A DNA stretch of 64,000 bases from Roseicyclus sp. (lineage in GTDB: Bacteria; Pseudomonadota; Alphaproteobacteria; Rhodobacterales; Rhodobacteraceae): contig NZ_JAGYJN010000005.1 in assembly GCF_018402035.1 (NCBI RefSeq), positions 1 through 64,000 on the forward strand, written 5' to 3'. Positions 17,082 to 37,963 of the stretch are shown one piece after another. The translations under genes were made by a program, and so were the position numbers. The notes under the pieces are model-generated. The model was given only the letters and a program-made list of their open reading frames with translations. It searched no databases and was not told the DNA's origin. Within the stretch, counting starts at the first letter, position 1. Each line of letters opens with the position of its first letter.

Positions 17082-17861
17082 TCACAGCTGACGCTCAACC
17101 ATCATCTTCTTGATCGAGGCAATCGCCTTGGCCGGGTTCAACCCCTTGGGGCAGGTCTTGGCGCAATTCATGATGGTATGGCAGCGATACAGCTTGAAGG
17201 GATCTTCCAGATCGTCCAAGCGCTCGCCTGTCGCCTCGTCGCGGCTATCGATGATCCAGCGATAGGCATGCAATAGCGCCGCTGGTCCAAGATAGCGATC
17301 CCCGTTCCACCAATAGCTGGGGCAAGAGGTCGAACAGCAAGCGCACATCACGCATTCGTAAAGGCCATCAAGCTTGTCGCGATCCTCGATCGACTGGCGC
17401 CATTCTTTTTCGGGGCGCTGGGTCTTGGTCTCGAGCCACGGCATGATCGAGGCATGCTGCGCATAGAAATGCGTCAGATCCGGGATCAGATCCTTGATCA
17501 CCGGCATATGCGGCAAGGGGTAGATTTTCACATCGCCCTTGATCTCGTCCATGCCATAGATACAGGCCAGCGTGTTGATCCCGTCGATATTCATCGCGCA
17601 AGATCCGCAAATCCCCTCGCGGCAGGACCGGCGGAAGGTCAGCGTGGGGTCGATCTCGTTCTTGATCTTGATCAGCGCGTCCAAAACCATCGGCCCGCAG
17701 CTATCCATATCGACCCAATAGGTATCGACGCGCGGGTTTTCCCCATCGTCAGGGTTCCAACGATAGATCTGGAATTTGCGCAGATTATTTGCCCCTGCGG
17801 GCTTGGGCCAAGTCTTGCCCGTGCGCATACGGGAATTCTTGGGAAGGGCCAGTTCAACCAT
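17082..17861 (-). CDS. sdhB: Succinate dehydrogenase iron-sulfur subunit
   Basis: Electron-transfer subunit of complex II, passing electrons from SdhA flavin to quinone. 259 aa. The [2Fe-2S] ligands are in [16 protein letters not shown] near residue 70 and the CGPM/ACIYG stretches around it; the [4Fe-4S] cluster in [16 protein letters not shown] near 160; and the [3Fe-4S] cluster in [17 protein letters not shown] near 225. Last gene of the order sdhC-sdhD-sdhA-lipoprotein-sdhB. Confidence 0.98.
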
Positions 17862-17890
17862 GGATCATATCCTCCGGGTCCGGTCGGCGG

Positions 17891-18172
17891 TCACAAGATC
17901 AAGGGCCGCGTTGGCCCCGCACCTGTGAGTTGTCGAAAACAATTGTCATAGACAAGCTGCGGGTCGCGCCCTGCGATGAAATCGCTGGTGATCGTCACAC
18001 TGCCCCGCGCGGCGGCACCGCCTGTGCCATAGCCAACCCCGATCTCACCACGGGGTTGAACGGCCAGACGCGCGCGCTCTGTGCATTGCGCAAAGGCGTT
18101 TTCTTCGCTCACCTGCCCACAGGCCGCAAGCAAAGGCAGCGCCAGCGCCACAAGGGGCAGTGCGCGGATCAA
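17891..18172 (-). CDS. Small lipoprotein encoded inside the sdh operon
   Basis: 93 aa, lipoprotein signal with lipobox LLAAC at residue 18, then about 75 polar residues with two further cysteines (AQCTERAR and YDNCFRQL) that could form a disulfide in the periplasm. No known domain recognised. The start is TTG and overlaps the sdhA stop as TTGA, so it is coupled to sdhA. It separates sdhA from sdhB by 307 bp. A role in complex II assembly is only a guess from position. Confidence 0.75.
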
Positions 18173-19989
18173 TAGACCCGCGCCTTGGGCTTGATCTTCT
18201 CCAGATCGATACCGCCCTCGTTATGGCCCATCAGCGGGTTCAGGTGCACAGGGCGATAATCCAGATCGACCTTTTCGCCATCGACCACGGCCAGCGAATG
18301 CTTGCGCCATGTGCTGTCGTCGCGATCAGGATAATCCTCATGCGCATGCGCGCCGCGGCTTTCCTTGCGCGCCTCGGCCGACACGATGGTGGCCATCGCA
18401 TTGGGCATCAGGTTCGTCAGCTCAAGCGTTTCCATCAGGTCCGAGTTCCAGATCATCGAGCGATCCGTGACCTTGATATCATCCATCTTGGAGGCGACGC
18501 CCTTCATCTTCGCCACACCCTCGGCCAGCGTCTTGTCGGTGCGGAACACCGCCGCATCGGCCTGCATCGTCTTTTGCATCTCAAGGCGCAATTCGGCGGT
18601 CGCGATATTGCCCGAGGCGTGGCGGATATCGTCAAAACGCGACAAGGCAAAATCGAGCGAGGCTTTCGGCACATCGGGCACCGCGCTGGCGCGGTCCACG
18701 ACCTCGCCGGCCTTGATCGCGGCGGCCCGGCCAAAGACGACCAGATCGATCAAGCTGTTCGATCCCAGACGGTTCGCACCATGCACGGATGCACAACCCG
18801 CCTCGCCCACGGCCATCAGGCCGGGCACGATCGCATCGGGGTTTTTCGCCGTGGGGCGCAGCACTTCGCCCCAATAATTCGTGGGGATGCCGCCCATGTT
18901 GTAATGGACCGTCGGCAGAACCGGGATCGGCTCTTTGTTCACATCGACGCCTGCGAAAATGCGCGCCGATTCCGAGATACCGGGCAGCCGTAGCGCCAGC
19001 GTTTCAGGCGGCAAATGGTTCAGGTGCAGATGGATATGATCACCATCCTTGCCCACACCGCGCCCCTCGCGGATTTCCATGGTCATGCAGCGCGACACCA
19101 CATCGCGCGACGCCAGATCCTTATAGGTCGGCGCATAACGCTCCATGAACCGCTCGCCTTCGGAGTTGGTCAGATACCCACCCTCGCCGCGCGCGCCCTC
19201 AGTAATCAGGCAACCCGCGCCATAGATGCCGGTGGGGTGGAACTGCACGAATTCCATATCCTGCAAAGGCAAGCCCTGACGCGCGACCATGCCACCGCCA
19301 TCGCCGGTGCAAGTATGCGCCGAGGTGGCCGAGAAATAGGCCCGCCCATAGCCGCCCGTGGCCAAGACGACCATCTTGGCGCGGAACACATGCATGGTGC
19401 CATCGTCAAGCTTCCAAGCCACGACGCCCACGCATTTGCCCTCATCGTCCATCAACAGATCGGTGGCGAAATACTCGATGTAGAATTCGGCATTGTTCTT
19501 GAGCGATTGGCCGTAAAGCGTGTGCAAGATCGCGTGACCCGTCCGGTCTGCGGCGGCACAGGTGCGCTGCACTGGCGGGCCTTCGCCAAACTCGGTGGTG
19601 TGGCCGCCAAAGGGGCGCTGATAGATCTTGCCATCCTCGGTGCGCGAAAACGGCACACCGTAATGCTCAAGCTCATAGACCGCCTTGGGCGCTTCGCGGG
19701 CAAGGTATTCCATCGCATCCGTATCGCCCAGCCAGTCCGACCCTTTGACAGTGTCATACATGTGCCAATGCCAGTGATCCGGGCCCATATTGCTCAGGCT
19801 GGCGGCGATGCCACCTTGGGCTGCAACAGTGTGCGAGCGTGTCGGGAACACCTTGGTCACACAGGCGGTTTTCAACCCCTGTTCGGCCATGCCCAGCGTC
19901 GCACGCAGGCCTGCACCACCCGCGCCCACGACGACAACGTCATAGGTGTGGGTATTGAGTTCGTAAGCGGGAGAGAGCGTATCTTTCAT
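18169..19989 (-). CDS. sdhA: Succinate dehydrogenase flavoprotein subunit
   Basis: Catalytic subunit of complex II, oxidising succinate to fumarate with covalently bound FAD. 606 aa from [13 protein letters not shown]-binding [20 protein letters not shown] near residue 17; the flavinylation site is the His of [10 protein letters not shown] near 50; active-site segments [21 protein letters not shown] and the Arg/His in MGGIPTN and [13 protein letters not shown] are present. Eight bases separate it from sdhD. Confidence 0.98.
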
Positions 19990-19997
19990 CTGCGTCC

Positions 19998-20369
19998 TCA
20001 CAGTGCAATCTGCGCCAATGCCACAAGCCCGCCTGCGGCAAGCCCGTAGCAAAGGATCGTCGTGACAATCAGGCCGATCTTGCGGCTCAACCCACGGAAA
20101 TAATCTTCGATCAACACCTGCATGCCCAAACGCATGTGGTGCATCCCCACGACCAGATAGGCCGAAACCACCAGCGCGGGCATCGGCCGCGACAGGCTCG
20201 CCACCACATCGGCATGGGGCTGGCCCAAAAGGCCGCCAATGATCAAAAGAAAGAACGGCGTCAGTAGCAATAGCGCCACCGAAGTGACCGTCATCGTCCA
20301 GTGATGCGCGGTCCCCGACTTGGCGGAACCAAGACCCGTCACGCGCTTGCGGTCGGTTACATAGGCCAT
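19998..20369 (-). CDS. sdhD: Succinate dehydrogenase membrane anchor subunit
   Basis: 123 aa, three transmembrane helices. The haem/quinone helix carries [18 protein letters not shown] near residue 78, with the haem-ligand His and the conserved Asp-Tyr of the quinone site. The N-terminal [13 protein letters not shown] is typical of alphaproteobacterial SdhD. Lies 11 bp after sdhC. Confidence 0.93.
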
Positions 20370-20380
20370 CTTGTCCCCCC

Positions 20381-20764
20381 TCAGATCGCGATCAAGGTCA
20401 GCGCGGTCAGCACGACCGAACCGATGATCATCGCCCAGCCAAGCTTATCGGACATCGCAACATCAAGCCCACGCCCGGTATCCCAGATCAGGTGCCGCAC
20501 ACCGCCCAGCGCATGATACCACAGCGCCAAAACCGACAGCCCCATCACGATATCGCCCAAGACCGAGGTGATCAGCCCGTCAATCACGCCAAAATAGGCA
20601 CCACCGCTTGCGGCGGCCATCAACCACCAGACCACCGCGATCGCGCCAACCATCAACCCGTTACCGGTGATGCGCACGAAGATCGACGTGATCGAGTTCA
20701 ACTGGGGGCGGTAAATCGTCAAATGAGGGGAAAGCGGTCTGTTTCCCCGGTTCACATCGGCCAT
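20381..20764 (-). CDS. sdhC: Succinate dehydrogenase cytochrome b556 subunit
   Basis: 127 aa with three transmembrane helices. Family signatures are [14 protein letters not shown] near residue 8 (quinone-site Ser and Arg region) and [18 protein letters not shown] near 82, which holds the haem-ligand His. First gene of the sdh operon; the paired TGTGATCACA boxes lie 137 to 167 bp upstream of its ATG. Confidence 0.95.
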
Positions 20765-20900
20765 AGCGTGGACCCTTCCGGCTATTCTAAGGTCTGGCGG
20801 TTGTCGGATAGTATCAATAGCGCCTTTTGCGTCACTGTCACCTGCAACGATCTTGCATTCTTGGGTGCGGCTTGGGGCGTAACGCCGCAGATGCAGGTTT

Positions 20901-20931
20901 TGTGATCACAGTTTTCAATCATGTGATCACA
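20901..20931. promoter_or_regulatory. Paired TGTGATCACA operator upstream of sdhC
   Basis: The 10-bp palindrome TGTGATCACA is at 20901-20910 and 20922-20931, centres 21 bp apart (two helical turns). The same pair at the same spacing lies upstream of sucC (27752-27782). It ends 137 bp before the sdhC ATG. The regulator is not identified. Confidence 0.7.
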
Positions 20932-20950
20932 AAGCAGCACCAGCCGCCTA

Positions 20951-21991
20951 TCACAATGGAATCAACACCCAATAATCCAGATCAAGCAAGATATGCGACA
21001 GGTATTTGCCCGCATCATCGCGCAGCGCCCCGGCTTTTCCGGCTTCATTCACCGCCACCAACCGCAGGCGCATGGCACCCACACCCGGCGCTGTGGTCGG
21101 TGCCATATCCAACACCTCTGACCACGCCCTAACCGTATCGCCTGCAAAACACGGGTTGGCATGGGCACCGCCATTGATCGCCACGATCATCTGCGCATTG
21201 GCCAACCCGTTGAAGCTCAGCGCGCGCGCCATCGAGATGACATGACCGCCATAGATCAACCGCCGCCCATCCTCGCGCAGCGTGCCGTCGTAATGGGTCT
21301 TGGCGGTGTTCTGCCAAAGCCGCGTGGCGAGCATATGCTCGGCATCCTCGATGGTCACGCCATCAACATGGTCGATCACCTCACCCACCGCATAATCGCC
21401 CATCCGGTGGGGCTCACCGGCCAGCGCGAAATCATAGTGGGTAAAATCCAACCCCGTCGGAATCACCAGCGCCGCCGGATCGACCACCGCCGCCAGATCG
21501 GGCACCACCGCATTGGGTGCGGGCGCGTCCAGATCGTTTTTGCGCACCATCACCCAGCGCACATAGTCCAGCACCAGATCACCGCGCTGATTATGGCCTT
21601 GGGTGCGGACATAAACGACCCCGGTCTTGCCGTTGGAATTCTCCTTCAGCCCGATCACCTCGGAGCGGGCGACCAGCGTATCGCCGGGCCAAACAGGCGT
21701 ATGAAACCGCGCTTCCGCATAGCCAAGATTGGCCACGGCGTTGAGCGAGATATCAGGCACCGTTTTGCCAAAGACCGTGTGGAAGGCGATCAGATCATCC
21801 ATCGGACTGGCCGCCAGCCCACAAGCGCGCGCAAACTCATCCGAGGAATGGATCGCACCGCGCGCAGGGTAAAGCGCATGATAAAGCGCGCGCTCCCCCC
21901 CCGACACCGTGCGCGGCACGGCATGGGCAATCACCTCGCCCAGCCGATAATCCTCGAAAAAGCGGCCCTTGTTGGTCTTGGCCCCCGCCAT
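20951..21991 (-). CDS. mch: Mesaconyl-CoA hydratase (MaoC family)
   Basis: Hydrates mesaconyl-C1-CoA to beta-methylmalyl-CoA in the ethylmalonyl-CoA pathway for acetyl-CoA assimilation. 346 aa made of two MaoC-like hot-dog domains. KTNKGRFFEDYRLGEVIAHA at the start, FGKTVPDISLNAVANLGYAEARF near 75 and IDHVDGVTIEDAEHMLATRLWQNTA near 215 match the Rhodobacter enzyme as I recall it. One base from the DUF1737 gene; in an apparent operon with the malyl-CoA thioesterase, the next two pathway functions. Confidence 0.9.
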   Translation of the reverse strand: MAGAKTNKGRFFEDYRLGEVIAHAVPRTVSGGERALYHALYPARGAIHSSDEFARACGLAASPMDDLIAFHTVFGKTVPDISLNAVANLGYAEARFHTPVWPGDTLVARSEVIGLKENSNGKTGVVYVRTQGHNQRGDLVLDYVRWVMVRKNDLDAPAPNAVVPDLAAVVDPAALVIPTGLDFTHYDFALAGEPHRMGDYAVGEVIDHVDGVTIEDAEHMLATRLWQNTAKTHYDGTLREDGRRLIYGGHVISMARALSFNGLANAQMIVAINGGAHANPCFAGDTVRAWSEVLDMAPTTAPGVGAMRLRLVAVNEAGKAGALRDDAGKYLSHILLDLDYWVLIPL

Positions 21992-21992
21992 G

Positions 21993-22196
21993 CTACTGCG
22001 CCCCTAGCTTCATCTCGGGGCTATAGGGGGTGTCGATCTCCTTGGTCACGGCCTGACCACAGCGCATCACACCGCGCGCTGCATCAAACGACATCACCGG
22101 GTCGCCATGCAGCACCCAGCCCTTTGACAGCGCCTCCGACACCTTGTGGCAAAAGGCCGAGGTGTCATCTTCGGTCAGCAAACGATAGATTTTCAT
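21993..22196 (-). CDS. DUF1737 domain protein
   Basis: 67 aa from MKIYRLLTEDD, which is where DUF1737 proteins begin; the open frame extends 25 codons further but without homology. Pattern: short beta strand, then FCHKVSEALSKGWVLHGDP, a motif shared across the family. Function unknown. It sits between nnrU and mch with tight spacing (7 bp and 1 bp) and so is co-transcribed with them. Confidence 0.8.
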   Translation of the reverse strand: MKIYRLLTEDDTSAFCHKVSEALSKGWVLHGDPVMSFDAARGVMRCGQAVTKEIDTPYSPEMKLGAQ

Positions 22197-22203
22197 GCCA
22201 GCC

Positions 22204-22758
22204 TCACATCGGGAAAGGGTAATAGCCAAGCCATGTGTGCACATAGGCCACGACGCCATAAAGCACCGCACCCACGCCGAACGCGATCACATCTTTCAAC
22301 AGGCTGGTATTGCTCGGCCGCTCCCAGTTGCGATTGGCGCGGTTGATCAAGATCACCGACACGACCGCCCAAGCCAGCATGCCACCGAACAAGATGATCG
22401 AAGCCAGATCGCCATTCACCAGCAAATGCGCAACCGCCCAAGCCTTGACGCCCGTCAACTGCTTATGACGCACCCGCGCGGCCATGGTGCCGTTGATATT
22501 GCTAAGCGCAAAGAACCAAAAGCCGATCAGGATCAACAGGTTGGCGATATGCGTCATAAAGGCCGGCGGCACCCAGACACTCACGAAACCCGCATTGCGG
22601 TAGCCCACCACCATCGCCACCAGACCGGCCAGCATCACCAGCGACAAGATGCCTTTGCCCGCATTGCCCCATGCCGCGCGCGCCTCGGGGGCAAGGCGCT
22701 TGACCCAATGCCCGCCTGCGAACAACGCGATCCCAAGGATCAGAAGAAAATAACCCAT
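22204..22758 (-). CDS. NnrU family membrane protein
   Basis: 184 aa, five or six transmembrane helices. Begins FLLILGIALFAGGHWVKRLAPEAR, the NnrU N-terminus, and carries THIANLLILIGFWFFALSNI and the His-containing AHLLVNGDLASIILFG segment. NnrU was named from denitrification loci in Rhodobacter, but many relatives, as here, have no nitrogen-oxide genes nearby and their function is unknown. Its ATG overlaps the stop of the malyl-CoA thioesterase gene as TAATG. Confidence 0.85.
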   Translation of the reverse strand: MGYFLLILGIALFAGGHWVKRLAPEARAAWGNAGKGILSLVMLAGLVAMVVGYRNAGFVSVWVPPAFMTHIANLLILIGFWFFALSNINGTMAARVRHKQLTGVKAWAVAHLLVNGDLASIILFGGMLAWAVVSVILINRANRNWERPSNTSLLKDVIAFGVGAVLYGVVAYVHTWLGYYPFPM

Positions 22759-23627
22759 TACGCAGCATCCCCTTTTGCGATTGCTTCTGCTTTGGCCAAT
22801 GTAGCACGCGCCGTCTCGACATGGAGATTTTCTACGATCTTGCCATCCACGACGGCGACGCCTTGGCCATTTGCCCGCGCCTCCTCATAGGCGGCGATCT
22901 GGCGCCGCGCGAGGGCGATCTCAGCCTCCGATGGGGCAAAGGCCGCATTGGCAATCGCCACCTGCGCAGGATGGATCAGCGTCTTGCCGTCAAAGCCGAA
23001 ATCCCGCCCCTCGGCACATTCGGCGGCCAACCCTTCCTCGTCCTTAAAGGCGTTATAGACCCCATCGACACAGATGATGCCAGCCGCGCGTGCCGCCAAT
23101 AGGCAATGCTGCAAGGCCATGACCATCGCACCGCGTGTGCGCGCGCCCAAATCCTTGGCCAGATCATTGGTCCCCATCACGAAGCCCGCCATGCGGGGCG
23201 CGCGCGCAATCTCGGCGGCGTTCAAGATGCCCTGCGGCGTCTCCATCATCGCCCAAATGCGCGTGTGCGCCGCCGCTGGGATCGCATCAAGCTTGGCCGC
23301 CACAGCCGCAACATCGGCCGCACTGCCCACTTTGGGCAGCAAGATCGCCTCAGGCCCAATAGCCGCCATCGCGGTCAGATCATCTGCGCCCCAAGGCGTG
23401 TCCATGCCGTTGATCCGCACGATCTGCGCCCGCGCGCCATAGCCGCCCTGCGCCAAGACCTGCGCCAAGAGTGCGCGCGCATTGGGCTTTTCCTCGGCGG
23501 TCACCGCATCCTCCAAATCGAAGATGATCGCATCGACGGCCAAATCGCGCGCCTTTTCCAACGCGCGGTCACGCGATCCGGGAATATAAAGCACAGAGCG
23601 GTAGGGGCGGGCGCGCAGGTCCATCAA
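22758..23627 (-). CDS. mcl2: CoA ester lyase family, probable (3S)-malyl-CoA thioesterase
   Basis: 289 aa, HpcH/HpaI-CitE TIM-barrel family. RSVLYIPGSRDRALEKARDL at the start, AIIFDLEDAVTAEEK near 35 (metal-site Glu-Asp), VRINGMDTPWG near 72, and TRIWAMMETPQGILNA near 125. The C-terminal FGFDGKTLIHPAQV closes the active site. Shorter than malyl-CoA lyase Mcl1 and closer to the thioesterase Mcl2, which hydrolyses malyl-CoA to malate in the ethylmalonyl-CoA pathway. Citramalyl-CoA or another CoA ester remains possible, but its operon with mesaconyl-CoA hydratase supports the pathway. Confidence 0.82.
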   Translation of the reverse strand: MMDLRARPYRSVLYIPGSRDRALEKARDLAVDAIIFDLEDAVTAEEKPNARALLAQVLAQGGYGARAQIVRINGMDTPWGADDLTAMAAIGPEAILLPKVGSAADVAAVAAKLDAIPAAAHTRIWAMMETPQGILNAAEIARAPRMAGFVMGTNDLAKDLGARTRGAMVMALQHCLLAARAAGIICVDGVYNAFKDEEGLAAECAEGRDFGFDGKTLIHPAQVAIANAAFAPSEAEIALARRQIAAYEEARANGQGVAVVDGKIVENLHVETARATLAKAEAIAKGDAA

Positions 23628-23767
23628 CCTTCTCCTTCAGTCAGGCAGGGGGCGGTTCTGAGCGCGGCACCGACCACAGCTTGGCCCCGAACGCAAGGGT
23701 GCGCATGCCGCAGCGCAGCAAAAATATTGCGCGTGGCGCATGCAAGACGCAAGAAAACACCCCGCCC

Positions 23768-25640
<1,873 letters not shown>

Positions 25641-25648
25641 TGATCTTC

Positions 25649-25678
25649 GCGGCGGCCCCCGATTTGCGGGGCCGCCGC
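25649..25678 (+). terminator. mdh terminator hairpin
   Basis: Eleven-pair stem GCGGCGGCCCC/GGGGCCGCCGC with an 8-base loop, starting 9 bp after the mdh stop. No T-run follows, because the next gene's ATG is 5 bp downstream; it may instead limit read-through. Confidence 0.6.
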
Positions 25679-25683
25679 ATCCC

Positions 25684-26343
25684 ATGACGCGGCCCCCATC
25701 CCCCTATCTTGTGCCCGGCTTCTACGACCGCGCGCTCAGCGATGGCCGCCACCGCGATATCGTGGGCGGACGCTGGGATGAAACGGGGCGGCTGCAAATG
25801 GCGCTACTCACCGCGCGCGGGCTGCAACCCCATCACCATCTTCTCGATATCGGTGCCGGATCGCTGCGCCTTGGCTGCAAGGCGGTGCCTTATCTTGACC
25901 CCGGCCATTATTGGGGCACCGATGCAAGCGGCGCCCTGATGCAGCGCGGCCGCGAAGTAGAATTGCCCGATCCCGAACGCCTGCCCGCCGATCATCTGGT
26001 GGAAGATGCCGATTTCGCCTTCCCAAACCTGCCCGCGCAGGTCGATTACCTGATCGCCTTTGGCGTCTTCACCCATCTGCCGCCCAGCCAGACCGCCACG
26101 GCGCTGGCCCGCATCGCGCAGCGCTGGCCCACACCATGCATCTTTCTTTTCACCGTCTTTCTGGCCCCCGAGGGGCAGGGGGACGAAAGCCTCCGCCAAC
26201 CCGATGGTGTCGTCACCCATCCCGACCGCCCGCCCTATCACATGCGCGAGACCGCCCTTTTGGCGATGGCGCAGGACGCGGGGCTACGCCTCACCCGCCA
26301 GCCCGACCGCCTGCCGCGCGGCCAAGTGCTTTGGCAGGGGTAA
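25684..26343 (+). CDS. Class I SAM-dependent methyltransferase
   Basis: 219 aa. Rossmann methyltransferase: motif I HHLLDIGAGSLRLG near residue 52, acidic loop YWGTDASGALMQRG near 76, motif IV VDYLIAFGVFTHLPPSQT near 118. The FTHLP stretch resembles methyltransferases acting on small molecules or sugars. Substrate unknown. It starts 5 bp after the mdh terminator stem and is followed by three stem-loops, so it is a single gene. No close function is recognised. Confidence 0.75.
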   Translation: MTRPPSPYLVPGFYDRALSDGRHRDIVGGRWDETGRLQMALLTARGLQPHHHLLDIGAGSLRLGCKAVPYLDPGHYWGTDASGALMQRGREVELPDPERLPADHLVEDADFAFPNLPAQVDYLIAFGVFTHLPPSQTATALARIAQRWPTPCIFLFTVFLAPEGQGDESLRQPDGVVTHPDRPPYHMRETALLAMAQDAGLRLTRQPDRLPRGQVLWQG

Positions 26344-26348
26344 GGGGC

Positions 26349-26416
26349 GCGTTTTCCTCAAGGAAAACGCACAGGAAATCTCGAGATTTCCCACGCGGAA
26401 AACTTGAGTTTTCCGC
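26349..26416. repeat. Three tandem stem-loops sharing arms
   Basis: GCGTTTTCC-TCAA-GGAAAACGC (26349-26370), the perfect palindrome GGAAATCTCGAGATTTCC (26374-26391), and GCGGAAAAC-TTGA-GTTTTCCGC (26395-26416). The GGAAAAC/GTTTTCC arms of the outer hairpins are interchangeable, so alternative pairings exist. Lies between the methyltransferase stop and pepT; may act as a terminator. Confidence 0.7.
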
Positions 26417-26476
26417 CCCCCGTTGACAAGCCGCCGCGCGCGCGTCCTCATCGCCCTGTCCGACAGGAGAAAGCCC

Positions 26477-27709: not shown

Positions 27710-27751
27710 GTCGGCATCGCATACCATTGCATACGATCAACATGGTTAACT

Positions 27752-27782
27752 TGTGATCACAGTTTTTCTGGCTGTGATCACA
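27752..27782. promoter_or_regulatory. Paired TGTGATCACA operator upstream of sucC
   Basis: TGTGATCACA at 27752-27761 and 27773-27782, again exactly 21 bp apart, 110 bp before the sucC ATG. Same architecture as the sdhC site at 20901. Both pairs also share a short T-rich linker start (CAGTTTT). Confidence 0.7.
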
Positions 27783-27891
27783 AATGTCGGTTTTTTCCCG
27801 AAATGACCGCGCTTGGACGAAAAATGCGTTTCATTGCGCCCCATGGTTGTGCTTATGCCCTGTCGAACACCACCAAACACGGGACAGTTTC

Positions 27892-29085
27892 ATGAACATT
27901 CATGAATACCAGGCGAAAGCGCTCCTTCGGCAATATGGCGCACCGGTCAGCGATGGCCGCGTGGTTCTCAAGGCGGAAGATGCCAAAACCGCCGCAGGCG
28001 AGATGGACGGCCCTCTCTGGGTCGTCAAGGCACAGATCCATGCCGGCGGCCGTGGCAAAGGTCACTTCAAAGAAGCCGACGCCGGTGAAAAAGGCGGCGT
28101 GCGCCTTGCCAAATCCGTAGAAGAAGCCGCTGAAGAGACCAAGAAGATGCTGGGCCGCACGCTCGTGACCCACCAGACCGGCCCCGCAGGCAAGCAGGTC
28201 AACCGCGTCTATATCGAGGATGGCTCGGGCATCGCGCGCGAGTTGTACCTTGCGCTTCTCGTTGACCGCCAGACCAGCCGCATTTCCTTCGTCTGCTCGA
28301 CCGAAGGCGGCATGGACATCGAAGAGGTCGCAGCCCACACACCTGAGAAAATCCTGTCCTTCTCGGTCGATCCCGCCACGGGCTACCAACCCTACCATGG
28401 CCGCCGCATCGCCTATTCCCTTGGCCTCGAGGGCAAGCAGGTCAAGGAATGCGTCAGCCTGATGGCCCTGCTTTACAAGGCCTTCGTCGAGCGTGACATG
28501 GAAATGCTCGAGATCAATCCGCTGATCGTCACCGATGAGGGCAGCCTCAAGGTGCTCGACGCCAAGCTCGGCTTTGACGGCAACGCCATGTATCGCCAGC
28601 CCGATATCCTCGCGCTGCGTGACGAGACCGAGGAAGACCCCAAGGAACTTCAGGCCTCGAAATACGACCTCAACTACATCGCGCTCGATGGTGAGATTGG
28701 TTGCATGGTCAACGGCGCGGGCCTTGCGATGGCCACGATGGACATCATCAAGCTTTACGGCTCGGAACCGGCCAACTTCCTCGATGTGGGCGGCTCGGCC
28801 ACCCGCGAGAAAGTGACCGAAGCCTTCAAGATCATCACTTCCGACCCGAACGTCAAAGGCATCTTGGTCAATATCTTCGGCGGCATCATGCGCTGCGATA
28901 TCATCGCCGAGGGCGTGGTGGCCGCCGTCAAGGAAGTGGGCCTTCAGGTGCCGCTGGTCGTCCGCCTCGAAGGCACGAATGTCGATAAAGGCAAAGAGAT
29001 CATCAACACCTCTGGCCTGAACGTCATCGCTGCCGACAACCTGTCGGATGCGGCTGAAAAGATCGTGAAAGCGGTCAAGGGCTGA
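27892..29085 (+). CDS. sucC: Succinyl-CoA synthetase (ADP-forming) beta subunit
   Basis: ATP-grasp subunit that couples succinyl-CoA cleavage to nucleoside triphosphate formation. 397 aa, starting [22 protein letters not shown]-grasp stretches [14 protein letters not shown] near residue 44 and [12 protein letters not shown] near 203, then the flavodoxin-like C-terminal domain with [13 protein letters not shown] and [13 protein letters not shown]. First gene of sucC-orf-sucD-sucA-sucB. Confidence 0.98.
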
Positions 29086-29102
29086 ACAAAGGCACCACGC
29101 AG

Positions 29103-29369
29103 ATGCGCATGATCCAGATCCATGCCGACACCCCACCGGGCGGCAAGGCGGCAACCCAGCACAAGCTGGCCCGCCTTTCCCATGGCATCGGAACGCGGCG
29201 CGCGATCTGGTCGGCGCTGCATCTGCTGGGTGCTGCAATTTTCGTTCTGGCGATGCTGACGCGGCTGACACAGGCCGACACCGCCATAGCCCTTGGCCAG
29301 ACCGCCTTGGGCGCAACCACATTCCCGCATTTGGAGCGGCCATTGCCCTCCGACCCGCATATGAATTGA
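29103..29369 (+). CDS. Small single-pass membrane protein between sucC and sucD
   Basis: 88 aa. A polar N-terminus with many His/Lys/Arg (residues 1-33), one transmembrane helix ([20 protein letters not shown], 36-55) and a short tail. Starts 17 bp after sucC and stops 11 bp before sucD, whose ribosome-binding site lies in the gap, so it must be co-transcribed with both. No domain recognised. Presence inside the two-subunit succinyl-CoA synthetase operon is its only functional clue. Confidence 0.65.
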
Positions 29370-29380
29370 GGAGAAAGACG

Positions 29381-30262
29381 ATGGCCGTACTCGTCAACGA
29401 ACACACCTTGGTGATCTGCCAAGGCTTCACCGGCAGCCAAGGCACCTTCCATTCCGAACAGGCCATCGCCTATGGCACCAAGATGGTCGGCGGCGTGACC
29501 CCCGGCAAAGGTGGCACCACCCACCTGAACCTGCCCGTGTTCAACTCGGTCCACGAGGCCAAGCATGCCACGCAGGCCAATGCCACCGCGATCTACGTCC
29601 CCCCGCCCTTCGCGGCAGACTCGATCCTCGAGGCGATCGACGCCGAGATGGAGCTGATCGTCTGCATCACCGAAGGTATCCCGGTGCTCGACATGATGAA
29701 GGTCAAGCGCGCGTTGGAAGGGTCCAAATCCCGGCTGATCGGCCCGAACTGCCCCGGTGTGATGACACCTGACGCTTGCAAGATCGGCATCATGCCCGGC
29801 TCGATCTTCCGCCGTGGTTCGGTCGGTGTGGTCTCGCGCTCCGGCACGCTGACCTATGAAGCGGTCAAGCAGACCTCGGATGTGGGCCTTGGCCAATCCT
29901 CGGCCGTGGGCATCGGTGGCGACCCGATCAAAGGCACCGAACATATCGATGTGCTGGAAATGTTCCTCGCCGACCCCGAGACGCATTCGATCATCATGAT
30001 CGGCGAAATCGGCGGCTCCGCCGAAGAAGAAGCCGCCCAGTTCCTCGCCGATGAGAAAAAGCGCGGCCGCTGGAAGCCCACCGCCGGTTTCATCGCGGGC
30101 CGCACCGCCCCTCCGGGCCGCCGCATGGGCCATGCCGGCGCCATCGTCGCGGGCGGCAAAGGTGACGCGGAAAGCAAGATCGAAGCGATGAAATCCGCAG
30201 GCATCATCGTGGCCGACAGCCCCGCGGGCCTCGGCGAAGCCGTGCTCAAGGCGATCGGCTAA
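29381..30262 (+). CDS. sucD: Succinyl-CoA synthetase (ADP-forming) alpha subunit
   Basis: 293 aa from [20 protein letters not shown] after GAGGAGA. Binds CoA and carries the phosphorylated His. CoA-binding [17 protein letters not shown] near residue 15, ESSR-type [12 protein letters not shown] near 95, [11 protein letters not shown] near 118, and the active-site His in [13 protein letters not shown] near 245. Partner of sucC. Confidence 0.98.
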
Positions 30263-30321: not shown

Positions 30322-33282
30322 ATGACCGACCAAAGCCCCAACGACCAGTTCCACGCCTCATCCTTCATGCAAGGGCATAACGCGGCGTATCTTGAACAGC
30401 TCTACGCGCAATACGCCCAAGATCCGGGCGCGGTTGACGAGGCATGGCGCGCCTTTTTCGCTTCGCTTGGCGACACTCCCGCCGATGCCAAGGCCGAGGC
30501 ACAAGGCCCAAGCTGGGCGCGCCGCGACTGGCCGCCCACCCCCAATGATGATCTGACCGCCGCACTGACCGGCGAATGGCCGCAAGCCGCCGCCGAGATC
30601 AAAGGCGCGGGCGACAAGATCAAGGCCAAGGCACAGGAAAAAAGCGTCGAAGTGACCGACGCGCAGATCCAGCGCGCCGTTCTCGATAGTATCCGCGCGC
30701 TGATGATCATCCGCGCCTACCGCATCCGTGGCCATCTGGTCGCCGACCTCGACCCGCTGGGCATGCGCGAGACGACACCCCACCCCGAGCTTGATCCGAA
30801 ATCCTACGGCTTCACCGATGCCGACATGGATCGCCCGATCTTTATCGACAATGTGCTTGGCCTACAGATGGCCTCGATGCGCCAGATCCTCGAGATCGTA
30901 AAGCGCACCTATTGCGGCACCTTCGCGCTGCAATACATGCATATTTCCGACCCCGAACAATCCGCATGGCTGAAAGAGCGGATCGAAGGTTACGGCAAGG
31001 AAATCGCCTTCACCCGCGAAGGGCGCAAGGCGATCCTCAACAAGCTGGTCGAGGCCGAAGGCTTCGAGAAATTCCTCCATGTCAAATACATGGGCACCAA
31101 GCGTTTCGGCCTAGATGGCGGCGAGGCGCTGATCCCCGCGATGGAACAGATCATCAAGCGCGGCGGCGCGCTTGGCCTCAAGGACATCGTCATCGGCATG
31201 CCGCACCGTGGCCGCCTGTCGGTTTTGGCCAATGTGATGGGCAAGCCCTACCGCGCGATCTTCAACGAATTCCAAGGCGGCAGCTTCAAGCCCGAAGATG
31301 TCGATGGCTCGGGCGATGTGAAATATCACCTCGGCGCGTCGTCAGACCGTGAATTCGACGGCAACACCGTGCACCTCAGCCTGACCGCCAACCCCAGCCA
31401 CCTCGAGGCGGTGAACCCCGTCGTTCTGGGCAAGGTCCGCGCCAAGCAAGATCAGCTTCGCGACACCGAACGCCGCTCGGTCATGGCGATTTTGCTTCAT
31501 GGCGACGCGGCCTTTGCGGGCCAAGGCATCGTGGCCGAGGGTTTCCAGCTTTCGGGCATCCGTGGCCACCGCACCGGCGGCACCATGCATATCGTGGTCA
31601 ACAACCAGATCGGTTTCACCACCGCGCCGCATTTCAGCCGCTCCTCGCCCTATCCGACCGATATCGCCCTGATGGTCGAAGCGCCGATCTTCCACGTGAA
31701 TGGCGACGACCCCGAGGCCGTGGTCCATGCCGCCCGCGTCGCGACCGAGTTCCGCCAGAAGTTCGGCAAAGACGTCGTGCTCGACATCTTCTGCTACCGC
31801 CGCTTTGGTCATAACGAAGGCGATGAGCCGATGTTCACCAACCCGGTGATGTATCAGCGCATCAAGACCCATAAAACCACGCTCCAGCTTTATACCGAGC
31901 GTCTGGTCAAGGACGGCCTGATCCCCGAAGGCGAGATCGAAGATGCCAAGGCCGCCTTTCAGGCCCGCCTGAACACCGAGTTCGAGGCCGGCAAAGACTA
32001 CAAACCCAACAAGGCCGATTGGCTCGATGGGCGCTGGTCGCATATCAACCGCGAAGGGGCCGACTACCAGCGCGGCGAAACCGCGATCAAACCCGAAACG
32101 CTGGCCGATGTGGGCCGCGCGCTGAGCACCGCACCCGAAAGCGTGAGCCTGCACAAAACCGTCTCCCGCCTGCTGGAAGCCAAGCAAGAGATGCTGACCA
32201 CGGGCACGGGCTTTGATTGGGCCACCGCCGAAGCGCTGGCCTTCGGCTCGCTTCTGACCGAGGGCTTCCCCGTCCGCCTTGCTGGCCAAGACAGCACGCG
32301 CGGCACCTTCTCCCAGCGCCACTCCGCCTTGATCGATCAAGCCAGCGAAGATCGCTACTACCCGCTCAACAACATCCGCGAGGGGCAAGCGAAGTTCGAG
32401 GTGATCGACAGCGCCCTGTCCGAATACGCGGTCTTGGGTTTCGAATATGGCTATAGCCTTGCCGAACCCAATGCGCTCACCATGTGGGAGGCGCAGTTTG
32501 GCGATTTCGCCAATGGCGCACAGATCATGTTCGACCAGTTCATCAGTTCCGGCGAACGCAAATGGCTGCGCATGTCGGGCCTCGTCATGCTGCTGCCGCA
32601 TGGTTTCGAAGGCCAAGGCCCCGAGCATTCCTCGGCCCGGCTCGAACGCTTCTTGCAAATGTGCGCCGAGGATAACTGGATCGTCGCCAACTGCACCACG
32701 CCCGCCAACTACTTCCACATCCTGCGCCGCCAGATCCACCGCAGCTTCCGCAAGCCGCTTGTGCTGATGACGCCCAAATCGCTTTTGCGTCACAAGCTTG
32801 CGATTTCGGACGCGGCCGATTTCACCACCGGCTCCTCTTTCCACCGCGTGCTGTGGGATGACGCCGAAAAGGGCCATTCTGACACCGTGCTCGCCAAGGA
32901 TAGCAAGATCCGCCGCGTCGTGATCTGCTCGGGCAAGGTCTATTACGATCTTCTCGAAGAACGCGATGCGCGCGGGCTGACGGATGTCTACCTGCTGCGT
33001 CTGGAACAGTTCTATCCCTTCCCCGCACATTCGCTGATGAAAGAGCTTGAGCGCTTCAAAGGCGCCGAGATCATCTGGTGCCAAGAAGAGCCCAAGAACC
33101 AAGGCGGCTGGTCCTTTGTCGAACCCAATATCGAATGGGTGCTGACCCGGATCGGCGCCAAGCACACCCGCCCGCGCTATGTGGGCCGCGCGGCCTCGGC
33201 CTCGCCCGCGACGGGCTTGGCCAGCCAGCATAAATCCCAACAGACCGCGCTCGTGAACGACGCGCTGACCATCGAAGGGTAA
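30322..33282 (+). CDS. sucA: 2-oxoglutarate dehydrogenase E1 component
   Basis: Thiamine-diphosphate-dependent decarboxylase of the 2-oxoglutarate dehydrogenase complex. 986 aa. N-terminal [26 protein letters not shown] segment that binds the E2 core; active-site stretches [18 protein letters not shown] near 295, [18 protein letters not shown] near 395 and [16 protein letters not shown] near 450 (metal-binding Asp/Asn); C-terminal [25 protein letters not shown]. The stop overlaps the sucB ATG as TAATG. Confidence 0.98.
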
Positions 33283-34754
33283 TGACCATGACGATCGAAG
33301 TTCGCGTGCCCACCTTGGGCGAAAGCGTCACCGAAGCCACCGTGGCCACGTGGTTCAAAAAACCCGGCGAGGCCGTCGCGGTTGACGAAATGCTGTGCGA
33401 GTTGGAAACTGACAAGGTCACGGTCGAAGTGCCAAGCCCCGCCGCGGGCATCCTTGGCACCATCGTCGCGGCCGAGGGTGAAACCGTCGGCGTCAACGCG
33501 CTTTTGGCCACGCTCAGCGAAGGCGCAGCCGCAGCCCCCGCTGCTGCCGCCGCCAAACCCGCCACCAGCGCCGCCGTCGATGTCATGGTCCCCACGCTCG
33601 GCGAAAGCGTGACCGAGGCGACGGTTGCCACATGGTTCAAGAAAATCGGCGACACCGTGGCGCAAGATGAAATGCTCTGCGAGCTTGAAACCGACAAAGT
33701 CTCGGTCGAGGTGCCAAGCCCCGCTGCCGGTGTCTTGAGCGAAATCATCGCCGCCGAAGGCACAACCGTGCAAGCCAATGGCAAGCTCGCCGTAATCGGC
33801 GGCGCTGTCGCCGCTGTGGCCGCCGCACCCGCCCCTGCGCCCGCCGCGACCAGCGCGGGCAAAGATATCGCCCATGCCCCCTCGGCGCAAAAGATGATGG
33901 CCGAAAAAGGCATCGACGCCGCTCAGATCACAGGCACCGGCCGCGACGGTCGGATCATGAAGGAAGATGTGATGAAGGCCGCCTCTGCCCCGCAAGCCGC
34001 AGCACCCGCACCCATGGCCAGCGCCCCCCGCGCCCCCTCCCCGGCCGAGGATGCCGCGCGCGAAGAACGGGTGAAAATGACCCGCCTGCGCCAGACCATC
34101 GCGCGCCGCCTGAAAGATGCGCAAAACACGGCGGCAATGCTCACCACCTATAACGAGGTCGACATGACCGAGGTGATGGCCCTGCGCAACGCCTACAAGG
34201 ATGACTTCGAGAAAAAGCACGGCGTGCGGCTTGGCTTCATGTCCTTCTTCACCAAGGCCTGCGTCCATGCGCTGCGCGAAGTGCCCGAGGTCAATGCCGA
34301 GATCGACGGCAATGATATCGTCTATAAGAACTTCGTGCATATGGGCGTGGCCGCCGGCACCCCCACCGGGCTTGTCGTGCCGGTGATCCGCGACGCCCAC
34401 ACCATGTCCTTTGCCGAGATCGAGAAAGCCATCGCTGAAAAGGGCCGCCGCGCGCGTGACGGCAAGCTCTCGATGGCCGAGATGCAGGGCGGCACCTTCA
34501 CCATCTCCAACGGTGGCGTCTATGGCTCGCTCATGTCCTCGCCCATCCTGAACCCGCCGCAATCGGGCATCTTGGGCATGCACAAGATCCAAGACCGCCC
34601 CATGGCGATCAATGGCCAAGTGGTGATCCGCCCGATGATGTATCTCGCACTCAGCTATGACCACCGCATCGTGGACGGCAAAGGCGCCGTGACCTTCCTT
34701 GTGCGGGTGAAAGAAGCCCTCGAAGATCCGCGCCGCTTGCTGATGGATCTGTGA
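33282..34754 (+). CDS. sucB: 2-oxoglutarate dehydrogenase E2, with two lipoyl domains
   Basis: Dihydrolipoyl succinyltransferase. 490 aa, longer than the roughly 400 aa of E. coli SucB because it carries two near-identical lipoyl domains: residues 3-80 (lipoyl Lys in [13 protein letters not shown]) and residues 103-180 ([13 protein letters not shown]), joined by Ala/Pro linkers. Then the E1/E3-binding domain ([32 protein letters not shown]) and the catalytic acyltransferase domain ending in the active-site stretch [16 protein letters not shown]. The start may be the overlapping ATG at 33282 or the one at 33288. Confidence 0.96.
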
Positions 34755-34761
34755 TCTATTC

Positions 34762-34890
34762 CCGTCACCCTCGGGCTTGACCCGAGGGTCCCCAAGCCAC
34801 CAACCACCGTCACCCTCGGGCTTGACCCGAGGGTCTCCAAGCCACCAACCACCGTCACCCTCGGGCTTGACCCGAGGGTCTCTAAGCCAC
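34762..34890 (+). repeat. 45-bp tandem repeat built on a palindrome, three copies
   Basis: Units start at 34762, 34807 and 34852 with a 45-bp period and differ at very few positions. Each contains the palindrome ACCCTCGGG-CTTGA-CCCGAGGGT. Lies directly between sucB and the GIY-YIG gene, ending 13 bp before its ATG. Similar TCGGG-CTTGACCCGA palindromes are widespread in alphaproteobacterial intergenic regions. Confidence 0.85.
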
Positions 34891-34902
34891 AAGACTGATA
34901 GG

Positions 34903-35217
34903 ATGTTCGTATACATGCTGACCAATAAACCAGATGGAACGCTTTATATCGGCGTTACCAACGATCTGGTCCGGCGCGTGTATGAGCACCGCACCCATGC
35001 GGTAAAGGGCTTCACGGATCGCTACAATCTCGAACGCCTCGTCTGGTTCGAACCGCACGCAGACCCCACGCAAGCCATCCGGCGCGAAAAGGCGCTGAAA
35101 CGCTGGAACCGCGCTTGGAAAATCGCACTGATCACACAGACCAACCCGAGTTGGCGCGATCTGTGGGACGAGATCGTCGGGTCAAGCCCGACGATGACGG
35201 GAAAGCTGGCCCAATGA
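34903..35217 (+). CDS. GIY-YIG endonuclease family protein
   Basis: 104 aa, single-domain GIY-YIG nuclease of the UPF0213 type. The two strands read FVYMLTNKPDGTLYIGVTND (YML replacing GIY, YIG intact); the catalytic Arg is in LVRRVYEHR, with HAVKGFTDRYN and the Glu in RREKALKRW. The start at 34903 follows AGG; the frame continues upstream only through the tandem repeat. The last ten codons (IVGSSPTMTG) are encoded by an inverted copy of the same palindrome that flanks the gene on both sides. It splits sucB from lpdA. Role unknown. Confidence 0.8.
   Translation: MFVYMLTNKPDGTLYIGVTNDLVRRVYEHRTHAVKGFTDRYNLERLVWFEPHADPTQAIRREKALKRWNRAWKIALITQTNPSWRDLWDEIVGSSPTMTGKLAQ
35173..35200 (-). repeat. 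Inverted copy of the palindrome inside the GIY-YIG 3' end
   Basis: ATCGTCGGG-TCAAG-CCCGACGAT followed by GACGGG. It is the reverse complement form of the repeats at 34762 and 35232, with CGTC instead of CCTC in the arms. It codes for the last residues of the nuclease. Confidence 0.7.
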
Positions 35218-35231
35218 TCGCTCCCCCTAAG

Positions 35232-35334
35232 ACCGTCACCCCCGGGTTCGACCCGAGGGACTCCCTCCGCCACCACACCCCCGTCACCCTCGGGCACACC
35301 CCCACCGTCACCCTCGGGCTTGACCCGAGGGTCT
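35232..35334 (+). repeat. Right-hand palindromic repeats after the GIY-YIG gene
   Basis: Three CCGTCACC units: a diverged palindrome at 35232-35261 (CCCGGGTTCGACCCGAGGG), a half unit at 35281-35296 that stops after CTCGGG, and a full copy at 35304-35333 identical in core to the left array. Together with 34762-34890 they bracket the nuclease gene. Confidence 0.8.
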
Positions 35335-35359
35335 CCCCCGCTCCTCACGGAAGCCGAAC

Positions 35360-35761
35360 ATGACCACCGAGCTTTACATCCTCGCCCTCGCGGCCCTCCT
35401 GCAATATGTCCAGATTGCCCTCTACTCCGTCGCCGGGAACGCACAGGCAGGGGCCAAGGCCGCCATGGGCCCGCGCGACCAAAAGATCGAGTTGACCGGC
35501 GTCGCCGGTCGCCTGCAACGCGCGATGAACAACCATTTCGAGGGGCTGATCCTGTTCGGCATCGCGGTCGTGGTCGTCACCCTCTCGGACCGCTCCAGCG
35601 CGCTGACGGAAGGTTGCGCCCATGCCTATCTGATCTCGCGCGTCCTGTTCATCCCGGCCTATGCCCAAGGGCTTGTGCCTTGGCGCAGCCTCATCTGGGC
35701 CGTGGGATTTCTCGCCACCCTCATCATGCTGCTTGCCGCGCTCTTTGGCGGGGCAGCGTAA
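35360..35761 (+). CDS. MAPEG family membrane protein
   Basis: 133 aa with four transmembrane helices, the membrane-associated eicosanoid/glutathione metabolism fold. Typical parts: LLQYVQIALYSVAGNAQAG near residue 13, GRLQRAMNNHFEGLILFGIAV near 47 (conserved Arg-Asn-x-x-Glu), and RVLFIPAYAQGL near 90. Bacterial members are of unknown substrate; some conjugate glutathione. Stands between the repeats and lpdA. Confidence 0.85.
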   Translation: MTTELYILALAALLQYVQIALYSVAGNAQAGAKAAMGPRDQKIELTGVAGRLQRAMNNHFEGLILFGIAVVVVTLSDRSSALTEGCAHAYLISRVLFIPAYAQGLVPWRSLIWAVGFLATLIMLLAALFGGAA

Positions 35762-35769
35762 CCGCGATA

Positions 35770-35802
35770 TGTACAGCCTGTGTACAGGGTGTGTACGCCC
35801 TG
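35770..35802 (+). promoter_or_regulatory. Three 11-bp direct repeats upstream of lpdA
   Basis: TGTACAGCCTG, TGTACAGGGTG and TGTACGCCCTG follow each other without gaps (35770, 35781, 35792), followed by TGACGG. The 11-bp period puts each box on the same face of the helix. They end 28 bp before the lpdA ATG. Confidence 0.5.
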
Positions 35803-35830
35803 TGACGGCAGAACTCGACAGGAGGACACC

Positions 35831-37219
35831 ATGTCCAGCTATGACGTCATCATCATCGGTTCCGGCCCCGGCGGCTATGTTTGCGCCATCCGCTGCGCGC
35901 AGCTTGGCCTGAAAACCGCCGTGGTCGAAGGGCGCGACACGCTCGGCGGCACCTGCCTCAATATCGGCTGCATCCCCTCCAAGGCGCTCTTGCATGCCTC
36001 CCACCAACTCCATGAAGCGGAACATAATTTTGCGAAAATGGGGCTGATCGGCAAAGCGCCCAGCGTCGATTGGAAACAGATGCTCGCCTACAAGGACGAT
36101 GTCATCGGCCAGAACACAAAGGGCATCGAATTTCTGTTCAAAAAGAACAAGATCGACTGGCTCAAGGGCTGGGGTTCGATCCCCGAGGCAGGCAAAGTGC
36201 GCGTGGGCGACGCGACCCATGACGCGAAAAACATCATCATCGCAACGGGTTCCACCCCATCCGTGCTGCCCGGCATCACCATCGACGAAAAGATCGTGGT
36301 GACATCTGAGGGCGCGCTGTCACTGCCCAAGATCCCCAAGAAACTGGTCGTGATCGGCGCAGGTGTGATCGGCCTTGAGCTTGGCTCGGTCTATGCCCGC
36401 TTAGGGGTTGAGGTGCAGGTGATCGAGTATCTCGACCACATCACCCCCGGCATGGATGCTGAGGTCGCAAAGAACTTCCAACGAATCCTTTCCAAACAAG
36501 GCCTTGGCTTCACCCTCGGCGCTGCCGTTCAGTCGGTCGAGACAGCCAAAGGCAAAGCCACCGTCACCTACAAACTGCGCAAAGATGACAGCACCCACAG
36601 CATCGACGCCGATGTGGTTTTGGTGGCCACGGGCCGCAAACCTTACGTCGATGGCCTAGGCCTCGACGCTTTGGGCATCACCATGACCGAGCGCGGCCAA
36701 ATCGCCACCGACGCCCATTATGCCACCAATATCAAGGGCATCTACGCCATCGGCGACGCCATCACCGGGCCGATGCTCGCCCATAAGGCCGAAGATGAAG
36801 GCATGGCCGTGGCCGAGGTGCTGGCGGGCCGTCATGGCCATATGAACTATGGCGTCATCCCCGGCGTGATCTACACCCACCCGGAAGTGTCCTCTGTCGG
36901 CGCAACCGAAGAAACCCTGAAAGCCGAGGGCCGCGCCTACAAGGTCGGCAAGTTCTCCTTCATGGGCAATGGCCGCGCCAAGGCCAATTTCGCTGGCGAC
37001 GGTTTCGTCAAGATCCTCGCCGATCAGCAAACCGACCGCATCTTGGGCGCTCATATCATCGGCCCGATGGCGGGCGATTTGATCCACGAGATCTGCGTCG
37101 CGATGGAATTCGGCGCATCGGCCCAAGACCTCGCCATGACCTGCCATGCCCACCCCACCTACTCGGAGGCGGTGCGCGAGGCGGCACTCGCCTGCGGCGA
37201 CGGCCCGATCCATTCCTGA
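35831..37219 (+). CDS. lpdA: Dihydrolipoyl dehydrogenase (E3)
   Basis: FAD-dependent enzyme that re-oxidises the lipoyl groups of 2-oxo-acid dehydrogenase complexes with NAD. 462 aa from [20 protein letters not shown] after GGAGGA. Redox-active disulfide in [17 protein letters not shown] near residue 40, NAD site [20 protein letters not shown] near 178, and the C-terminal His-Glu couple [15 protein letters not shown] near 441. Being linked to sucAB, it is probably the E3 of the 2-oxoglutarate complex. Spaced from sucB by the nuclease and MAPEG genes, so may have its own promoter at 35770. Confidence 0.97.
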
Positions 37220-37308: not shown

Positions 37309-37963
37309 ACCCCGCCAAAAGCCGCAGTCCTTGCGTCACATCGGCCCGCACGGCCAGCCGCAACCCTGGCTCATCCCCCGCCTTCAGCGCGGCCACGATC
37401 AAGCGGTGATGCTGCGGCAATTCCGTCCGGTTCAAGCGCCCATAAAGCGCGCGCATGGTCGGGCCGAGTTGCAGCCACACGGTCTCGGTCAAGGCCAGCA
37501 TCGCGGGCGCTTGCGCGCGCAAGTAAAGCGTGCGGTGAAACTCCAGATTGCGCCGGATATAGGCGACCGCATCGCGCCGCGCGATGGCCTGCCCGATGGT
37601 GGCGTTGATCGCCTCCATCCGCTCGATCAGCGCCGGATGCGCGCGGGGCAGCGCGCGGGTGGCCAGTTCCGGCTCCAACAGCGCGCGCAGTGCCGCCAAC
37701 TCCTCGATCCGCTCATTGGACAGCTCCGGCGTCGAGACACGGCCGGAACTGGACAAGAACAGCGCCCCTTCGCTGACCAGCCGGCGCACCGCTTCGCGTG
37801 CAGGTGTCATTGAGACGCCGAATTCCGCCCCCAGACCGCGCAGCGTCATCGCTTGGCCCGGACCCACCTCGCCATGCATGATGCGCGAGCGCAGCGCGCG
37901 ATAGACCCTGTCATGGGCCACCGCGGCGCCTGTCTCGGTCGGGCGCGGGTTCATCTGCATCAT
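37307..37963 (-). CDS. GntR family transcriptional regulator (FadR/FCD type)
   Basis: 218 aa. N-terminal winged helix (VYRALRSRIMHGEVGPGQ, then LRGLGAEFGVSMTPAREAVRRLVSEG, residues 15-80) and an all-helical FCD effector domain with RALLEPELATRAL, NLEFHRTLYLRA and HHRLIVAALKAGD, which carry the metal-coordinating Asp/His positions. Effector probably a carboxylic acid. The ATG overlaps the stop of the upstream metallopeptidase as ATGA and has GGAGGA before it. No obvious target gene next to it; whether it reads the TCA-cycle boxes in this window is untested. Confidence 0.88.
   Translation of the reverse strand: MMQMNPRPTETGAAVAHDRVYRALRSRIMHGEVGPGQAMTLRGLGAEFGVSMTPAREAVRRLVSEGALFLSSSGRVSTPELSNERIEELAALRALLEPELATRALPRAHPALIERMEAINATIGQAIARRDAVAYIRRNLEFHRTLYLRAQAPAMLALTETVWLQLGPTMRALYGRLNRTELPQHHRLIVAALKAGDEPGLRLAVRADVTQGLRLLAG

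Follow-up and report, generated by a model that had tools for sequence, protein, structure and literature searches.

The 64-kb stretch of Roseicyclus sp. DNA analyzed here (the window) carries two tricarboxylic acid (TCA)-cycle operons preceded by the same pair of short palindromes, which raises the question of what protein binds these pairs and how it acts from them. An earlier note on this DNA had described two identical 10-bp palindromes 21 bp apart upstream of sdhC, a second pair with the same sequence and spacing upstream of sucC, and no further copy in the 64 kb. This description holds in all its parts: the window contains four exact copies of TGTGATCACA, at 20901, 20922, 27752, and 27773, all of which belong to the two pairs (Table 1), and the palindrome-to-palindrome spacing in each pair is 21 bp. 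The palindromes and their spacing are identical at the two sites, and the 11-bp linkers are different. The sdh pair lies 136 bp upstream of the sdhC ATG and 19 bp downstream of the stop codon of the preceding MaoC-like hydratase gene, and the suc pair lies 109 bp upstream of the sucC ATG. The order sucA, sucB, lpd is also found in Cereibacter johrii. In addition, a ACGGGACAG-like word just 5' of the sucC start (27877 to 27886, forward strand), unlike a standard ribosome-binding site, recurs in several genera, and an 88-residue ORF with a hydrophobic stretch is present between sucC and sucD (29103 to 29369, forward strand).

Table 1. Palindrome pairs, predicted promoter elements, and associated genes in the window
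Feature	Position	Strand	Basis
Promoter-proximal palindrome TGTGATCACA, sdh pair	20901..20910	-	Sequence match
Distal palindrome TGTGATCACA, sdh pair	20922..20931	-	Sequence match, 21 bp from proximal
-35-like GTGACA of predicted sdh promoter, 59 bp past pair	20836..20841	-	Inferred promoter
-10-like TATTGA of predicted sdh promoter	20814..20819	-	Inferred; consensus GTGACA-N16-TATNAA
sdhCDAB operon (succinate dehydrogenase), regulated unit	17082..20764	-	NCBIfam matches
Distal palindrome TGTGATCACA, suc pair	27752..27761	+	Sequence match
Promoter-proximal palindrome TGTGATCACA, suc pair	27773..27782	+	Sequence match
Conserved CGTTT of predicted suc promoter (weak -35 region), 44 bp past pair	27827..27831	+	Inferred promoter
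-10-like TTATGC of predicted suc promoter	27853..27858	+	Inferred
sucC and sucD (succinyl-CoA synthetase), start of suc operon	27892..30262	+	NCBIfam matches
sucA, sucB, and lpd (2-oxoglutarate dehydrogenase complex), downstream in suc cluster	30322..37219	+	NCBIfam matches
GntR/FCD regulator, likely AkgR ortholog, predicted pair binder	37310..37963	-	Pfam, orthologs, alignment, model

The pairs are not chance repeats, an origin that is ruled out by shuffling and by conservation. In 100 dinucleotide shuffles of the window, TGTGATCACA occurred 0.06 times on average, and none of the 100 reached four copies. Matches with up to two mismatches number 28, compared with 19.3 expected, so only the exact palindrome stands out in the window. 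It is also the sole 10-bp perfect palindrome in the window with two copies at most 60 bp apart, overlapping CG repeats excepted. The reversed-pattern control for TGTGATCACA contains CTAG, which is a rare word, and reliance is therefore placed on the shuffles, the spacing, and conservation. The source genome (3.03 Mb, 92% complete) has seven exact copies, comprising the four of the two pairs and three singles, and the 31-bp pair TGTGATCACA-N11-TGTGATCACA, searched with up to three mismatches, is found there just at the sdh and suc sites, so that the genome-wide scan proposed in the earlier note returns pairs only before sdhC and sucC. The singles within a SulP-family ORF and an SCO1-family ORF were rejected as further operators, being intragenic. 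The third single (L002:1501-1510, G000:C34) is intergenic and lies 5 bp past a propionate-CoA-ligase-like ORF and 56 bp ahead of a sensor-kinase/response-regulator ORF.

Conservation was assessed in 198 genera of the family, with one genome for each; we infer from likeness to Cereibacter johrii that this family is that of Rhodobacter and its kin. The 31-bp pair is present with up to two mismatches in 163 of the 198 genera, and the core pair, with any gap from 0 to 30, is present in 175. Among 75 places listed in 36 genomes and counted by hand, the core gap is 13 bases (21 bp center to center) in 62, 12 bases in 6, and another value in 7. At 60 of the 63 loci examined, which were drawn from the top of the lists and include several sites fetched twice, the pair has a spacing of 20 or 21 bp and lies ahead of sdhC, sucC, or, in one genome (G177), sucA; none of the other three, the odd-gap pairs L109, L116, and L117, is near suc or sdh. 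All 77 further loci taken from listed coordinates lie ahead of sdhC (43) or sucC (34), and 68 of them are spaced at 21 bp, the other 9 at 20 bp; a fumC pair in G042, a match of 27 bases in G189, a pair with two mismatches in G115, and the places with odd gaps were excluded from this set. The pair is kept in most genera of the family. Triple arrays of the palindrome at 21-bp steps occur in G135 and G191. The third canonical pair of G042 (L199:1993-2023) is located at the head of the gene for class II fumarase, which is a TCA-cycle enzyme.

In a class-wide sample, the pair was found in five of five family genomes versus 2 of 380 others. A stray pair outside the family, in G400, lies inside a histidinol-phosphatase ORF; it is probably due to chance and was rejected as an operator. 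Another stray pair, of GTGATCAC, was observed with the same spacing in G345, which belongs to another family (L200:992-1020), directly 5' of a different GntR/FCD gene, whose product is about 30% identical to the window regulator.

The shape of the site was examined in 41 oriented pairs, in which the invariance of the core is partly built in because the sites had been located by it. T and A occupy the outermost positions in 38 of the 41 each, and A and T occupy the inner ones in 32 each. Base composition goes from A/T rich in the outer flanks to C/G rich just inside and back to A/T rich at the center of the linker. The 31-bp pair is thus roughly symmetric about its middle, as would be expected for two dimers facing each other. 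Changes in the outer bases (58 versus 61 of 82) do not tell within-site pairing from between-arm pairing.

The position of the pairs relative to the predicted promoters bears on how they act. Scanning for promoters with guessed hexamers gave no information, and a comparison anchored on the pair was used in its place; initially, it placed GTGAC 57 to 59 bp past the pair in 10 of 14 cases. In the larger set, a block GTGACA-N16-TATNAA lies 55 to 61 bp past the pair at 46 of 57 sdh loci (mean of 3.5 and maximum of 8 in shuffled tails), and a block AAAAA-CGTTTA lies at an offset of 42 to 46 at 42 of 63 suc loci (shuffled mean of 2.6 and maximum of 9). The block models were built from the rows within the peak, so the peak is partly circular, and the exceptions, 11 sdh and 21 of the 63 suc loci with no block at the usual place, are outside the models. 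Five sdh exceptions score above 15, four of them shifted by +9.4 to +12.4 bp and one by +19.4 bp, and four suc exceptions score above 10, with a shift of -10.7 bp. Of these nine shifts, seven deviate by at most 1.1 bp from a whole number of helical turns and the other two by up to 1.6 and 1.9 bp, score limits having been chosen after the scores were seen and the rows being related. Among all exceptions at up to 35 bp, 6 of 9 at sdh and 10 of 17 at suc are in phase to within 1.6 bp, about twice the chance share of roughly 3 in 10; the remaining exceptions have low scores and no clear block. The fixed distance and the whole-turn shifts argue for a protein that acts from one face of the helix, like an upstream activator. 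Promoter words at a fixed distance from the pair, with the nine well-scoring exceptions shifted by whole turns to within 2 bp, are new as far as the literature covered extends. The conservation, the 20- or 21-bp spacing, and this promoter phasing support the earlier suggestion that TCA-cycle operons share an operator whose two copies face the same side of the helix, and the geometry of the DNA suggests occupancy by two dimers.

The phasing also bears on whether the pair works as RNA, in a terminator or hairpin whose arms pair with each other. The arms are complementary by construction, but the predicted promoters follow the pair in a fixed phase, the palindrome also forms triple arrays at 21-bp steps, and single copies occur at GntR promoters (see below). 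In addition, no terminator-like site was found around the sdh pair (20650 to 21000 scanned), and no Rfam match was found in 20600 to 28000. An RNA element was rejected for want of support in these two scans, and it is scarcely credible.

A candidate for the binding protein is encoded in the same cluster. The product of the GntR gene at 37310 to 37963 (reverse strand), for which the ATG at 37963 is preferred as the start over an upstream TTG, has only GntR and FCD domains in Pfam, and it is one of 17 FCD proteins in the source genome. Its structure model (mean pLDDT of 89.3) has a winged-helix domain and six C-terminal FCD helices, and six FCD helices are a mark of the VanR-type subfamily. The protein is a member of the GntR family, FCD (VanR-type) subfamily. 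FCD metal ligands are Asp-His-His-His; the polar residues invariant in the 17 aligned proteins are instead N139, H143, H186, and D208 (218-residue numbering), which were matched to those ligands by eye and are candidates for a ligand or metal pocket. The stop codon of an ORF for a YgjP-like metallopeptidase (37960 to 38721, reverse strand) overlaps the start of the regulator gene. A second group of GntR proteins (L170, L171, L172, and L175), about 40% identical to the window protein, comprises members from other alphaproteobacteria and a paralog in the family.

The link to a known regulator runs through Cereibacter johrii, which was reached by a search with an AppA fragment and belongs to the same genus as Rhodobacter sphaeroides. 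C. johrii has one strong ortholog of the window GntR protein, with 76% identity (29% for the next best), and the gene for it is located 0.7 kb beyond the sdhB 3' end. Both the sdh and the suc pair are present in this species, at the exact 21-bp spacing. RSP_0981 of R. sphaeroides is taken here to be AkgR, as reportedly given in the abstract of a 2015 mBio paper. In PMC4344238, RSP_0981, a GntR protein, is predicted to regulate RSP_0967-6 (succinyl-CoA synthetase), RSP_0974-6 (succinate dehydrogenase), and the 2-oxoglutarate dehydrogenase genes, and in PMC6365646, GTGATCAC is found among the binding sites of the activator AkgR. The window sites contain GTGATCAC, and the genes behind the pairs at the 60 of 63 and 77 of 77 loci described above are those expected of AkgR, suc and sdh. 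Read via C. johrii, the window GntR protein is likely the ortholog of R. sphaeroides AkgR, and the protein that binds the pairs is very probably this GntR/FCD regulator. The earlier note had named AkgR and CceR as candidates and a GntR gene at 37307 as another; AkgR fits in targets and in GTGATCAC, and the GntR protein fits too, but it is not a separate candidate, being itself the likely AkgR ortholog.

The regulator gene itself often carries the palindrome. GTGATCAC lies just 5' of the start codon in 23 of 30 orthologs examined, which were the best-scoring ones and that of C. johrii, the window gene excluded. In a spacing comparison to which G187 was added for its tandem site, 20 of the 24 rows having a site show a TTGAC that begins exactly 18 bp before the first base of the site. 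With a -10 element 17 bp downstream of TTGACN, the palindrome would overlap that element, a location at which a bound protein would block the polymerase. GTGATCAC is absent from the regulator's own promoter in the window and in C. johrii, so such autoregulation is not universal.

This distribution has consequences for CceR (RSP_1663), the LacI-family member of the two central-carbon regulators named above. According to PMC4344238, CceR is predicted at succinate dehydrogenase as well, but its predicted motif, GTT-N6-8-AAC, compared by eye, is unlike TGTGATCACA, and CceR leaves the palindrome at the GntR gene's own promoter unexplained. CceR was rejected as the binder of the pairs because its motif differs, and the chance that the sites belong to it is very slight.

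The pair and the window-type GntR protein also tend to be absent together. In the 198 genera, a match to the regulator was found in 186 at an E value of 1e-20 and in 176 at 1e-60; the latter cut, which defines the strong orthologs, was set after the values had been seen, and in many genomes no more than 13 candidates were scored. The core pair (gap of 0 to 30) is absent from 18 of the 22 genomes without a strong ortholog versus 5 of the 176 with one (Fisher's P value of 1.4e-17 for the shared absence, with genera that are not independent), and the stricter 31-mer is absent from 18 of 22 versus 17 of 176. Three of the five genomes with an ortholog and no core pair are less than 77% complete, and G040 has a pair at two mismatches. 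Of the 18 genomes with neither the core pair nor a strong ortholog, 16 were searched for sucC, which 15 of them have; GTGATCAC was absent within 300 bp upstream of sucC in all 15 of these GntR-less genomes. G157 (80% complete) has what was judged by eye to be a decayed pair at sucC with the correct spacing. In a SucC tree built from 41 rows, the presence label changes about 6 times, with 2 changes forced by well-supported branches, compared with a mean of 12.5 after shuffling, and part of the shared absence may be ancestral rather than due to loss.

These counts also weigh on the possibility that the true binder of the pairs is one of the genome's other FCD/GntR proteins (17 in all), or else an unrelated regulator, with the window GntR protein linked to the pairs by genome location alone. 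Four genomes have a pair without a strong ortholog: G033 (74% complete), G096 (77% complete), G019, with one pair and a GntR match at 5e-40, and G114 (100% complete), with two pairs and a best GntR match at 1.4e-33. G019 and G114 favor another binder, as do the pair in front of another GntR/FCD gene and a published proposal that a related GntR protein elsewhere uses GTGATCAC. Against it stand the shared absence of the pair and the window-type GntR protein and the palindrome at this gene's own promoter in most orthologs examined, and we regard another binder as quite improbable.

The window GntR protein, as the AkgR ortholog, would be an activator at sdh and suc, which is supported here by position and phase. 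Repression from the pairs would accord with its solved relatives, which include named repressors such as Atu1419/VanR, and with the repressive look of the single site at the regulator's own promoter. The pairs, however, are far upstream of and in phase with the predicted promoters, a poor place for simple blocking, and AkgR is termed an activator in PMC6365646; repression from the pairs is unlikely.

Taken together, there is good reason to think that the pairs are composite operators of the AkgR ortholog, from which two dimers would activate sdh and suc, and that one dimer would repress the regulator's own gene in most relatives. One AkgR dimer would occupy each GTGATCAC palindrome, and the two dimers would sit two helical turns apart on one face of the DNA, centered about 98 and 119 bp before the predicted start point at sdh and about 88 and 109 bp before that at suc. 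From this class-I-like activator position, the paired dimers would help RNA polymerase at both promoters. Transcription start sites have been published for R. sphaeroides (PMC7471390). In most relatives examined, though not in the window organism, AkgR on a single palindrome that covers the last part of the spacer and the beginning of the -10 element would repress its own gene. The sequence, its conservation and spacing, the phase of the promoter words, and the joint absence are observed; we infer the binding of the window protein to the sites, its cooperativity, the promoters, and the autorepression.

Several known systems resemble this arrangement in part. The best solved match of the window regulator is McbR/YncC (4p9f) of Escherichia coli (3e-22 by sequence, TM of 0.87 by fold, and 28% identity), which has different targets, and the next structure matches are other GntR/FCD proteins, some of them VanR type. 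BusR is a tetrameric GntR assembly with a 22-bp molecular ruler, and the two sites that it recognizes are separated by about two turns; unlike the window protein, which has FCD and no RCK_C domain in Pfam, BusR contains an RCK_C domain and is a repressor. In Agrobacterium fabrum, Atu1419 (VanR), which shares the GntR/FCD fold, is described in the BusR paper as a tetramer on two sites, but its sites are 190 bp apart with looping repression, compared with 21 bp and presumed activation here. Another likeness is to the AkgR regulon of R. sphaeroides as given in the sources above, with a GntR regulator, the TCA-cycle targets suc and sdh, and GTGATCAC among its sites. AkgR was already known, as were its motif and targets; what the sequence adds here is the two-copy 21-bp layout, the promoter phasing, and the autoregulatory site. 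No description of the paired layout or of AkgR autoregulation was found in searches of the open-licence literature, a scope that excludes the 2015 mBio AkgR paper. This addition of a phase-locked pair and a single autoregulatory site comes with the reservation that this paper may already contain the 21-bp two-copy layout.

On balance, we lean slightly toward the view that one palindrome carries opposite signs, with paired dimers giving phase-dependent activation at sdh and suc and a single dimer shutting off the regulator's own gene. If this is true, most genera of the family retain the activation module, and the autoregulatory half, which is missing in the window organism and in C. johrii, a relative of the model organism, may have gone unnoticed. 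The motif becomes a defined regulatory module, with its spacing, helix face, promoter distance, and feedback, and the wiring of the TCA cycle becomes predictable across a large alphaproteobacterial family. With its many aligned promoters, whole-turn shifts, and shared absences, the family offers a natural system for activation by GntR/FCD dimers.
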